Source of the DNA: Pseudomonadota bacterium
GTDB taxonomy: Bacteria > Desulfobacterota > JAPLJL01
NCBI GenBank assembly: GCA_026388655.1
Contig: JAPLJI010000183.1
Span: 1 to 36,750, forward strand
Direction of reading: 5' to 3'
DNA length: 36,750 nt
The notes under the pieces are model-generated. The model worked only from the letters and a program-made list of their open reading frames with translations, did not search any database and had not been told where the DNA came from. The position numbers and the translations under genes were made by a program. Positions within the stretch are counted from its first letter, which is position 1; every line of letters begins with the position of its first letter. Shown piece after piece: positions 5,009 through 7,871 of the stretch.

Positions 5009-5236
5009 TTATTTTTTCTTCACGTAACCCTTTAGGATTCCGCCTTCTTTTTTCATTTCCAAAAACTGCTCCCCGGTCATCCCGCACCAGGAAGGAAGGT
5101 CCTTCTCAAACCCGGGGTCGTCGGCAATCACCTCCAGGACCTCCCCGGATTTCATCACTTCCATCTCTTCCTTGGTTTTCACGATCGGCATCGGGCAGAA
5201 GAGACCGATGCAGTCGAGAGATTTATCTGATTTCAT
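5009..5236 (-). CDS. TusA/SirA-family sulfur carrier
   Basis: A 75-residue protein of the TusA (SirA-like) fold. It has the family signature LDCIGLFCPMPIVKTKE, in which Cys14 of CPMP is the persulfide-carrying residue, and a second block DDPGFEKDLPSWC with Cys51, as seen in many anaerobe TusA proteins. TusA proteins accept sulfane sulfur from desulfurases or thiotransferases and hand it to DsrE-type proteins or tRNA/cofactor thiolation. It lies 109 bp downstream of the dsrE-like gene in the same direction, consistent with that partner. The gap contains two small hairpins (GCCGAT/ATCGGC at 5263-5276 and GCCCGAT/ATCGGGC at 5289-5304). Family assignment is secure; the acceptor is not known. Confidence 0.9.
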   Translation of the reverse strand: MKSDKSLDCIGLFCPMPIVKTKEEMEVMKSGEVLEVIADDPGFEKDLPSWCGMTGEQFLEMKKEGGILKGYVKKK

Positions 5237-5345: not shown

Positions 5346-5813
5346 TTAAATGAAAAGGTTTATTTTCGATTCCCGGGCGATGGCCAGATAAGTGGCCGCC
5401 CCGGTAAAATCGTCCACGGTGTCGGCCAGCTGTTCCCGGCCCAGGCCCATCACCCCGCAGCTGGTGGTGCAGGCGATGTATTTAACCTTGAGCGCCCGGG
5501 CGGTTTTCATCAGGTCCTCGAGCGATGCCATCTTGGTTTTCTTCATCAGTTTTCTCATCATCCAGGGCCCCAGGCCCAGCATGTTCAGGCGGGAGAGCGG
5601 CAGGCCCCGGTTCATGAAATTCAGCATCTTCTGCATCAGGAGCTGGGTTTTGGAAAGGGAAAACTCGGATTTCTTCAGGAGGTTCAATCCCCAGAAAGTA
5701 AAAAAAATGGTCACGTCCATTCCGCTGGCGGCCGCGGTGGTGGCGAGCGTAAAAGCGGCCAAGGCCTTGTCGAACTCGCCGGAAAACAGGATGATGGTCA
5801 TCTTTTCGCTCAT
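5346..5813 (-). CDS. DsrE/DsrF-like sulfur-transfer protein
   Basis: A 155-residue protein of the DsrE-like family (DrsE_2 type). It has the N-terminal strand MTIILFSGEFDKALAAF, an amphipathic insertion LNMLGLGPWMMRKLMKK typical of this membrane-associated subgroup, and VKYIACTTSCGVMGL carrying Cys115 and Cys119, the likely persulfide site. Family members relay sulfane sulfur together with TusA; here the two are adjacent. Its ATG overlaps the stop of the upstream zinc-ribbon gene (ATGA, 5810-5813), implying translational coupling. The second cysteine four residues after the first could allow disulfide or metal chemistry. Function is inferred from family and context. Confidence 0.85.
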   Translation of the reverse strand: MSEKMTIILFSGEFDKALAAFTLATTAAASGMDVTIFFTFWGLNLLKKSEFSLSKTQLLMQKMLNFMNRGLPLSRLNMLGLGPWMMRKLMKKTKMASLEDLMKTARALKVKYIACTTSCGVMGLGREQLADTVDDFTGAATYLAIARESKINLFI

Positions 5814-6019
5814 CGGCAGGTCTCACAGGTCGGACAACTTTTCAAACCGCTCTGGTAAAGCCTCCCGCACTTTGGGCACTGTTTCAACTTGATCTCACAG
5901 GGCTGGCAAACCAATGTTTCCCGGCACTGCGAAACCAGTTCCTGCTCGCACATCGGGCACTTGCAGCTGATTTTCCCGCTGGTTTTGGTCTTTCTGGAGG
6001 TTTTTTTCGTTTTTTTCAC
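5810..6019 (-). CDS. 11-cysteine zinc-ribbon protein in sulfur cluster
   Basis: A 69-residue basic protein (N-terminus MKKTKKTSRKTKTSGK) followed by a cysteine-packed core: C19, C21, C24, C32, C38, C41, C48, C51, C62, C65, C68. At least three CxxC pairs (CQPC, CPKC, CPTC) look like stacked zinc ribbons, but a thiol-rich protein placed between iscU and dsrE could also carry iron-sulfur or persulfide sulfur. I recognise no named family. Its stop overlaps the dsrE start by four bases, so the two are probably made together. The upstream gap to iscU (135 bp) holds a word repeat of GACCGCTGACC type and a CTACC-tailed hairpin. The existence of the gene is well supported by the coupling and the Cys pattern. 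Confidence 0.75.
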   Translation of the reverse strand: MKKTKKTSRKTKTSGKISCKCPMCEQELVSQCRETLVCQPCEIKLKQCPKCGRLYQSGLKSCPTCETCR

Positions 6020-6154: not shown

Positions 6155-6553
6155 TTATTTTGAAATTTGAGCTTTGACATTTGGATTTTTTTTAAGATAG
6201 TCCTCAATCGCCTTGTGGAGCGCGTCCGCGCCCAGGTTGGAACAGTGCATTTTGTTCTTGGGCAGCCCCCCGAGCTGTTCCGCCACCATCTCCTTGGTCA
6301 TTTTCATGGCCTCATCGATCGTTTTGCCCTTGGCCATCTCCGAAACCATCGAGGAAACCGCGATCGCCGCCCCGCATCCGAAGGTCTGGAATTTAACATC
6401 CTCGATCACGTTATCCTTGACCTTGATATAAAAGGTCATCATATCCCCGCAAACCGGGTTGCCTATTTCTCCCACCCCGTCGGCATCCGGGATCTCTCCG
6501 ACATTGCGCGGGTTCTGGAAGTGGTCCATCACTTTTTCGGAATAGATCGGCAT
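6155..6553 (-). CDS. iscU: Iron-sulfur scaffold protein IscU
   Basis: A 132-residue IscU/NifU-N scaffold, the platform on which [2Fe-2S] clusters are built before transfer to apo-proteins. It begins YSEKVMDHFQNPRNVG and has the three conserved cysteines C35 (GNPVCGD, with the conserved Asp37), C60 (FGCGAA) and C104 with its preceding His (HCSNLGADAL). Length and ends are those of bacterial IscU of the non-proteobacterial type. It follows the iscS-like gene by 82 bp in the same orientation. Because that partner lacks the catalytic lysine, sulfur may reach this scaffold by another route (see the iscS entry). The gap upstream contains TTTCGGGTTTC word repeats. Confidence 0.93.
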   Translation of the reverse strand: MPIYSEKVMDHFQNPRNVGEIPDADGVGEIGNPVCGDMMTFYIKVKDNVIEDVKFQTFGCGAAIAVSSMVSEMAKGKTIDEAMKMTKEMVAEQLGGLPKNKMHCSNLGADALHKAIEDYLKKNPNVKAQISK

Positions 6554-6635: not shown

Positions 6636-7871
6636 TTATTGGTCATCATGTTCATGCTCATGCTCGTAATCCGTGCCCGGGCCGGCGGGCTTTCTCTCCC
6701 CGGTCTTTAAGAAATAGGCATAAAGGGGCGACATCTCCCGCAACTTTTTCACAATGGGGGGAAATTCGGAAAGGATGTAATCGATATCGGCATCGGTGTT
6801 GTTCCGGGACAGGGCGAAAAGGATGGAACCCTGCCCCACCGCCGGGTCAACCTGGATCGCGGTCAGGACATGCGACATTTTCAGGGCCTTGGAAGCGCAG
6901 GCCGAGCCGCTGGAAATACTAATCGCCTTCTGGTCCAGGAACAGGAGCATGGCCTCGCCCTCGATGAATTCCACCGAAAAATTCACGTTGCTGGGAAGGC
7001 GCCGGGTCGGGTGTCCGTTCAGATACACATACTCAATTTTCGCGGGGAGCTCGGCAATCAGGCGGCGGCTCAAACCGGACAGCTTCCGGTAATTATCCTC
7101 GCGCTCGCTTTTGGCTATCTCGCAGGCCTTGCCGAAGCCGACTATGCCCGGAAGATTCTCGGTCCCGGCCCGCCTCCCGTTTTCCTGGATGCCGCCGTCG
7201 ATCTGGGGGATTACCCTTACTCCCTTTTTTAAATATAGGGCGGCCGCCCCCGGAGGTCCGTAAATCGGCGTTCCGGAAAATGTTAAAAGGTCGACCCCCA
7301 GCGCCCCGACCTCCACCGGCAGTAATCCCGCCGTGCACACGGCATCGGTGTGAAAAAGAGCCCCCTTCGCGCGGGCGATCCGGGCGAATTCCTCGATGGG
7401 CTGGATGGTCCCGATCTCGGGATTGGCCTGCTGGATGGAAACCAGGACCGTGTCATCCCGGACGGATTTTTTCACTTCCTCCGGGGAGATCAACCCGGAA
7501 CCATCAACGGGAAGATGGGTAACCTCGAAACCCGCCTGGGCCAGCCGGCGGGCGGAATAAAGCACGGAAAAGTGCTCGATCCCGGAAACCACGATGTGTT
7601 TTCCTTTCTGACGGTAGGCTTCCGCCGTCCCTTTCACCGCCAGGTTGTTCGCTTCGGAACCGCAGGAAGTGAAATAAATCTCTTCCGCCCCGGCCCCGAT
7701 CAGGCCCGCCGCCCGCTCCCGGGCCTGGTCCAGGGCCTCCCGGGACCTGGACCCTAGGGTATGCATACTCTGCGCGTTCCCGTAATTCTCCCCCAGGTAG
7801 GGTAGCATCTCCTCCAAGACCCGGGGATCGATCCGCGTATTCGATAGATTATCCAGATATACTTCTCTCAT
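6636..7871 (-). CDS. IscS-like protein lacking the PLP-binding lysine
   Basis: A 411-residue class V aminotransferase-fold protein of the NifS/IscS family. Conserved parts: YLDNLSNT start, TSCGSEANNLA, H100 (IEHFSV), NPEIGTIQPI, D176 (HTDAV), RAGTENLPGIVGFGKA, and the sulfur-carrying C324 (SSGSACAS). The lysine that normally forms the PLP Schiff base (the HK of SGHK) is missing: the sequence reads FSGTPIYGPPG, with T201-P202 in place of His-Lys. The following GPKG is GPPG, and the Gln of HTDAVQ is Cys179. The C-terminal ending LREMSPLY matches my memory of Archaeoglobus fulgidus IscS, a relative reported to lack this lysine and desulfurase activity yet to bind IscU. The tail ends in an acidic, His-rich EHEHEHDD that may bind metal. 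GGAG lies 9 nt before the ATG. First gene of the sulfur-relay cluster. Confidence 0.9.
   Translation of the reverse strand: MREVYLDNLSNTRIDPRVLEEMLPYLGENYGNAQSMHTLGSRSREALDQARERAAGLIGAGAEEIYFTSCGSEANNLAVKGTAEAYRQKGKHIVVSGIEHFSVLYSARRLAQAGFEVTHLPVDGSGLISPEEVKKSVRDDTVLVSIQQANPEIGTIQPIEEFARIARAKGALFHTDAVCTAGLLPVEVGALGVDLLTFSGTPIYGPPGAAALYLKKGVRVIPQIDGGIQENGRRAGTENLPGIVGFGKACEIAKSEREDNYRKLSGLSRRLIAELPAKIEYVYLNGHPTRRLPSNVNFSVEFIEGEAMLLFLDQKAISISSGSACASKALKMSHVLTAIQVDPAVGQGSILFALSRNNTDADIDYILSEFPPIVKKLREMSPLYAYFLKTGERKPAGPGTDYEHEHEHDDQ

Follow-up and report, generated by a model that had tools for sequence, protein, structure and literature searches.

In Escherichia coli, the activity of IscS requires His104, Asp180, Gln183, Lys206, and Cys328, and Arg354 holds the substrate carboxylate (PMC9978102). 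The crystal structure of E. coli IscS with TusA places IscS Cys328 approximately 4 Å from TusA Cys19, and IscU and TusA reach this same cysteine from different sides (PMC2854127). The minimal ISC system (MIS), which combines IscS with IscU and has no carriers, is described with a cysteine desulfurase (PMC12192291).

Archaeal IscS proteins that lack the Schiff-base lysine are already known singly. Archaeoglobus fulgidus IscS is the only characterized one found in the literature searched, and is reported as inactive, with a cysteine of IscS ligating the [2Fe-2S] cluster in IscU (PMC7585200). In this protein, IscS2 (PDB 4EB5, 4EB7, and 4HVK; D199K mutant 4R5F), Lys is replaced by Asp, Gln by Ala, and Arg by Leu with the cysteine kept, and its structure was solved in complex with IscU according to the PDB title. 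The catalytic lysine is likewise reported absent from the IscU-paired IscS1 of Methanosarcina acetivorans, of which nothing more is reported than that it was insoluble when expressed (PMC7585200). The IscS homologue described here shares the losses of A. fulgidus IscS2 and the IscU pairing of both proteins, but M. acetivorans IscS1 is archaeal and lies outside the sampled set.

An IscS homologue without the Schiff-base lysine

The window, meaning the whole stretch of 36,750 nucleotides that was analyzed, carries on its minus strand the gene order IscS, IscU, zinc ribbon, DsrE2, and TusA, with the lysine-less IscS first (Table 1). Its reading frame is uninterrupted and reads DLLTFSGTPIYGPPG. 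The protein aligns over its full length with IscS/NifS, matches PF00266 with 235.9 bits, and finds cysteine desulfurases as its best PDB matches. It scores under the cut-offs of the NCBIfam models, although the best NCBIfam matches are still desulfurases. An AlphaFold model (mean pLDDT 90) gives Foldseek TM scores of 0.88-0.92 against IscS/NFS1 structures, and A. fulgidus IscS likewise scores about 0.9; together with the PF00266 match, this places the protein in fold type I, class V. The cysteine loop (residues 324-329) is modeled at pLDDT below 50, as expected of a mobile loop, and the His-rich tail is also of low confidence. The C-terminal SPL(Y) segment, which docks IscU in E. coli IscS, is retained. 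The EHEHEHDD tail pointed out in the initial annotation is present in the sequence, and has counterparts, with variation, only in the nearest relatives (L121, L060, L055, and L039).

Table 1. Features of the lysine-less IscS locus, listed in the direction of the minus strand.
Feature	Positions	Strand	Basis
IscS-like protein without Schiff-base lysine, 411 aa	6636..7871	-	ORF, profile match, alignment, AlphaFold model
Cys179 codon, replacing PLP-binding Gln (E. coli Gln183)	7335..7337	-	alignment
Thr201-Pro202 codons, replacing His-Lys (E. coli His205-Lys206)	7266..7271	-	alignment
Cys325 codon, persulfide/cluster-ligand cysteine (E. coli Cys328), kept	6897..6899	-	alignment
Lys331 codon, cysteine loop	6879..6881	-	alignment
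Leu351 codon, replacing substrate-carboxylate Arg (E. coli Arg354)	6819..6821	-	alignment
EHEHEHDD tail, acidic, His-rich, C-terminal	6642..6665	-	sequence comparison
IscU/NifU_N scaffold; Cys35, Asp37, Cys60, His103, Cys104 conserved	6155..6553	-	profile match, alignment
Small zinc-ribbon-like protein, CxxC pairs, no Pfam match	5810..6019	-	present at same place in some relatives
DsrE2-type sulfur carrier (PF13686), conserved Cys115	5346..5813	-	profile match
TusA-family sulfur carrier (PF01206), CPMP motif, Cys14	5009..5236	-	profile match

Alignment with IscS agrees with the initial annotation on most of the active site, where Ser-Gly-Thr201-Pro202 stands against Ser-Ala-His205-Lys206 of the E. 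coli enzyme, Cys179 occupies the Gln183 column, and His100 and Asp176 are kept. The sulfur-bearing cysteine had been given the wrong number, as residue 324 is Ala and the correct position is Cys325. Three of the residues that define a desulfurase are missing: the Lys that forms the internal aldimine with PLP (now Pro202), the Arg for the substrate carboxylate (Leu351), and the Gln hydrogen-bonded to the PLP phenolate oxygen (Cys179). The His and Asp that touch the PLP ring in E. coli IscS (His104 and Asp180) and the persulfide Cys on the mobile loop all have their counterparts.

A congener (G002) encodes an orthologue that is 90% identical and has Ser-Pro at the His-Lys site. A base-call error restoring His-Lys, one of the two conditions under which the initial annotation would have fallen, is ruled out by this orthologue together with approximately 80 further lysine-less homologues. 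Between the window and G002, dN/dS is 0.058/0.522, or about 0.11, for the lysine-less IscS and 0.04-0.11 for IscU, DsrE2, and TusA; all four genes are under purifying selection.

A family that has lost both lysine and arginine

Homologues were gathered from same-phylum genomes and named genome contigs. The lysine is absent from 76 of the 111 homologues sampled with scan patterns that were derived from lysine-less sequences and so favored these, which means that the fractions given here are not population frequencies. None of the 76 keeps an Arg at position 351 (E. coli Arg354), as opposed to 33 of the 35 Lys-containing homologues. The two exceptions, L079 and L103, retain the lysine, have lost the Arg, and adjoin TusA. 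These two genes (L079:6001-7152 and L103:6001-7143), with His-Lys still in place, may represent a stage on the way to losing desulfurase function, or a return from it.

The resulting family is diverse, with about 80 sampled members in more than 10 phyla, mostly anaerobic lineages. The His-Lys position is occupied in homologues by Asn-Gln, Ser-Gln, Asp-Gln, Ser-Pro, Asn-Pro, Pro-Ala, Ile-Ser, His-Gln, His-Arg, and others. The substrate Arg is found in 0/80 members and the Gln183 equivalent is usually lost, and yet Cys325 is kept throughout (80/80 members, and 122/122 aligned rows), with His100 and Asp176 equally invariant (80/80). Six residues C-terminal of Cys325, at position 331, the window's clade carries a basic residue: of its 80 Arg-lacking members, 78 have Lys or Arg there (Arg in eight). 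An acidic residue, Glu or Asp, takes this place in 37 of the 39 homologues that contain the substrate Arg, and Gln or Glu in A. fulgidus IscS with its two relatives. The cysteine loop reads SGSACxSKALKxSH in the family as opposed to SGSACTSGSLEPSH in active-type homologues. In comparison with IscS/NifS/NFS1, the fold (TM about 0.9), the Cys loop, His100/Asp176, the C-terminal SPL segment, and the IscU pairing are preserved, but the equivalents of Lys206, His205, Gln183, and Arg354 are lost, the charge at position 331 is reversed, and the neighbors are TusA/DsrE2 instead of MnmA.

No description of the bacterial lysine-less family, its joint Lys/Arg loss, the charge change in the loop, or the TusA/DsrE2 linkage was found in the literature searched, mostly titles and abstracts, and the family is apparently undescribed. 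Some genomes encode more than one such protein. Two genomes (G008, with L138 and L157; G045, with L133 and L151) each have two different lysine-less IscS, each beside IscU. Genome G025 has, besides the lysine-less L139, a divergent second copy without the lysine (L154:6001-7200), whose cysteine loop is lengthened by an insertion of 7 residues.

Two phylogenetic trees were built, one from 122 rows with the trait columns left out and a second, careful one from 61 rows. In both, the window protein falls in a large clade that lacks the Arg, together with Elusimicrobia and Desantisbacteria sequences. A. fulgidus IscS forms a separate group with a Bathyarchaeota and one same-phylum sequence among Arg-containing homologues. 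In the 61-row tree, supported branches force two changes in the Arg state and 0/200 bootstraps need only one, so the loss is probably convergent between A. fulgidus IscS and the family described here, and an orthologous relationship between the two is rejected. The comparison with A. fulgidus IscS drawn in the initial annotation holds for an analogue that is likewise lysine-less, but not for a close relative. The two proteins share the loss of Lys and Arg, the kept Cys, and an adjoining IscU, but not a common descent that excludes Arg-containing enzymes; they are about 46% identical, and the archaeal protein has no Lys/Arg at position 331. Two close relatives of A. fulgidus IscS2 in the set adjoin IscU and TusA. 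The nearest named relatives of the window protein are from Elusimicrobiota (67-71%), and same-phylum genomes outside the genus reach at most 55%; this closeness may reflect horizontal transfer or uncertain placement.

Neighboring genes and the iron-sulfur inventory

The scaffold recognized at the outset as IscU lies on the minus strand next to the lysine-less IscS, and its ligands are conserved, as are the TusA CPxP cysteine (Cys14; 51/52) and DsrE2 Cys115 (20/20 covered rows). The order IscS-IscU-(zinc ribbon)-DsrE2-TusA recurs in Desantisbacteria, Elusimicrobia, Chloroflexota, Myxococcota, an actinobacterial MAG, and others, and a second arrangement, with TusA directly upstream, is found in Nitrospirota and Thermodesulfobacteriota. 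The zinc-ribbon-like protein has 69 aa, its gene overlaps that of DsrE2 by 4 bases, and it was recognized in L046, L051, L055, L060, and L086.

TusA, counted on the same strand within 2.5 kb at loci with adequate flanks, is near 47 of 71 Arg-lacking homologues and 0 of 32 Arg-containing ones. Collapsing at 60% identity leaves 17/26 as opposed to 0/9 (Fisher p 0.001, a value that is descriptive only, as the tree holds approximately two Arg changes and p-values do not count independent events). The association goes back to one or two independent Arg losses, so it is phylogenetically not significant. TusA is also present at L118, an archaeal locus with an Arg-containing homologue whose flanks are inadequate for the count; this locus carries a divergent Arg-lacking copy as well. 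MnmA shows the opposite distribution, being a neighbor of 10/19 Lys-containing but 1/52 Lys-lacking homologues. Unguided clustering of the neighbors gave a flavodiiron-type flavoprotein at 10 Arg-lacking and 0 Arg-containing loci and a rubrerythrin at 9 and 0, respectively; both lie on the same strand (e.g., L127, L049, and L074) and are named from the appearance of their sequences rather than a family search. Elsewhere in the window, positions 16032-36731 encode housekeeping functions, namely FtsK, an HflX-type GTPase, DNA polymerase III alpha, IMP dehydrogenase, pyruvate phosphate dikinase, and glycyl-tRNA synthetase beta.

The genome is a 3.56 Mb draft that is 94% complete, and absences are read with that caveat. 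Within it, SufB/D, an A-type carrier (PF01521), and a NIR_SIR sulfite reductase were not found, and the one NifU_N/IscU domain protein is the neighbor of the lysine-less IscS. The search for a second, lysine-containing IscS that the initial annotation had called for was successful, and the idea of a genome without such an enzyme is rejected: contig C127 encodes a canonical IscS with His-Lys (SAHK) and Arg, adjoining mnmA. This genome and the congener agree in having mnmA, and not IscU, beside the Lys-containing gene. With one recognized scaffold, these neighbor pairs indicate, on presence and absence, that the sole scaffold is paired with the lysine-less IscS and that the Lys-containing IscS is linked to tRNA thiolation. 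Every Lys-lacking genome that was checked for other copies has a Lys-containing paralogue of desulfurase type. The genome is similar to the MIS in its adjacent IscS and IscU genes and in that PF01521 was not found at 94% completeness, but the IscS component looks inactive, as judged by its residues, and sulfane-sulfur carriers are co-encoded. A second TusA domain, possibly YedF-like, lies in a 203-residue open frame (G000:C170:20485-20691).

Sulfur supply to IscU

The explanation favored here, with moderate confidence, is that the protein is a retired desulfurase that acts as a partner of IscU, either receiving persulfide from TusA/DsrE2 or serving as a cluster ligand. That it is an IscU partner and not a desulfurase was already proposed in the initial annotation, and is supported by the joint loss of Lys, Arg, and Gln, the kept Cys and IscU linkage, and purifying selection. 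At the level of sequence these traits (the Gln loss being usual) are well supported, as is the TusA/DsrE2 linkage. From its residues, the protein is very probably inactive as a desulfurase, and it quite probably partners IscU. Gene order gives the TusA/DsrE2 route an even chance, or slightly better, of being how sulfur reaches it.

The sulfur source would then be something other than cysteine bound within the lysine-less IscS. A persulfide relay of TusA and DsrE2, with sulfide, polysulfide, or a different desulfurase as its source, would put sulfane sulfur on Cys325, in the direction opposite to the E. coli IscS-to-TusA step, and the cysteine loop would then deliver it to IscU. Alternatively, by analogy with A. 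fulgidus, Cys325 may ligate a nascent [2Fe-2S] cluster. Sulfur exchange between TusA and DsrE is bidirectional in vitro (PMC13293266); together with the IscS-TusA crystal structure, the feeding of IscU by sulfide described below, and the A. fulgidus data, this suggests that the family may use the IscS protein both to relay sulfur loaded from TusA/DsrE2 and to help assemble clusters. A persulfide carrier as sulfur source, which the initial annotation had suggested, gains support from the conserved TusA and DsrE2 linkage, but since a Lys-containing IscS lies beside mnmA, TusA could still be relaying cysteine-derived sulfur. The IscS at C127 could also feed IscU directly, which counts against the relay. 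A broader proposal, that a TusA/DsrE2 persulfide relay through the lysine-less IscS to IscU replaced cysteine desulfuration at IscU across more than 10 phyla, and independently in A. fulgidus-type archaea, is tentative and has somewhat less than an even chance.

A widespread family beside IscU, often with sulfur carriers, suggests that many microbes assemble iron-sulfur clusters with sulfur supplied otherwise. Automated annotation would take the family for 'cysteine desulfurase', and pathway reconstructions for anaerobes therefore probably credit an impossible step. If sulfur does come from TusA/DsrE2 and sulfide, this would be a third mode of sulfur supply for IscU-type scaffolds, and the entry of inorganic sulfur into the iron-sulfur clusters of anaerobes would be testable with a defined five-gene set. 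The SMS system (SmsCB) of M. jannaschii is similar to this proposal in that it makes clusters from mineral sulfur without a dedicated cysteine desulfurase (PMC12192291). It differs in its SufBC-type scaffold, which was not found in the window's genome.

Free sulfide might instead enter on IscU, with the lysine-less IscS solely a structural partner or cluster ligand and TusA/DsrE2 at work in another pathway. The precedents are the inactive A. fulgidus IscS, which reportedly gives a cysteine ligand to the IscU [2Fe-2S] cluster (PMC7585200; structures 4eb5/4eb7), and an anaerobic E. coli iscS deletion, in which H2S can feed IscU (PMC13015791); moreover, TusA/DsrE2 were not found nearby at 28 Arg-lacking loci. 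This remains unlikely: the TusA/DsrE2 linkage is conserved, TusA occurs in both gene orders, upstream in one and downstream in the other, and the loop has changed to Lys/Arg, all of which suggests that the cysteine works with a partner protein.

The canonical IscS next to mnmA could also be the real desulfurase, passing sulfur to IscU directly or through TusA to the lysine-less IscS, which would be a docking platform. The Lys-containing paralogues in all Lys-lacking genomes checked are consistent with this, as is the charging of TusA by IscS in E. coli (PMC2854127). The linkage of the Lys-containing gene to mnmA and not IscU in the genome and its congener makes such an arrangement distinctly improbable; where it invokes the relay, that step is common to the favored explanation, and the ultimate sulfur source is the sole difference.

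Because His100 and Asp176, which correspond to the PLP-ring contacts of E. coli IscS, are invariant, the lysine-less IscS may still bind PLP or a similar ligand. Their invariance, the Lys/Arg at position 331 (78/80), and the slow partial chemistry that remains in E. coli K206A (PMC9978102) would also suit PLP chemistry by another way, either with non-covalent PLP or through a Schiff base with the loop residue Lys331. This is very unlikely, given that Arg351 is gone in 80/80 members and Gln in most, that the PLP-phosphate contacts His201 and often Ser199 are lost, and that the eight members with Arg at position 331 could not form an aldimine there. Gene decay or misassembly, for which the lost catalytic residues are the only argument, is hardly credible in view of the open frame, the G002 orthologue with the same loss, the dN/dS of about 0.11, and the approximately 80 homologues.
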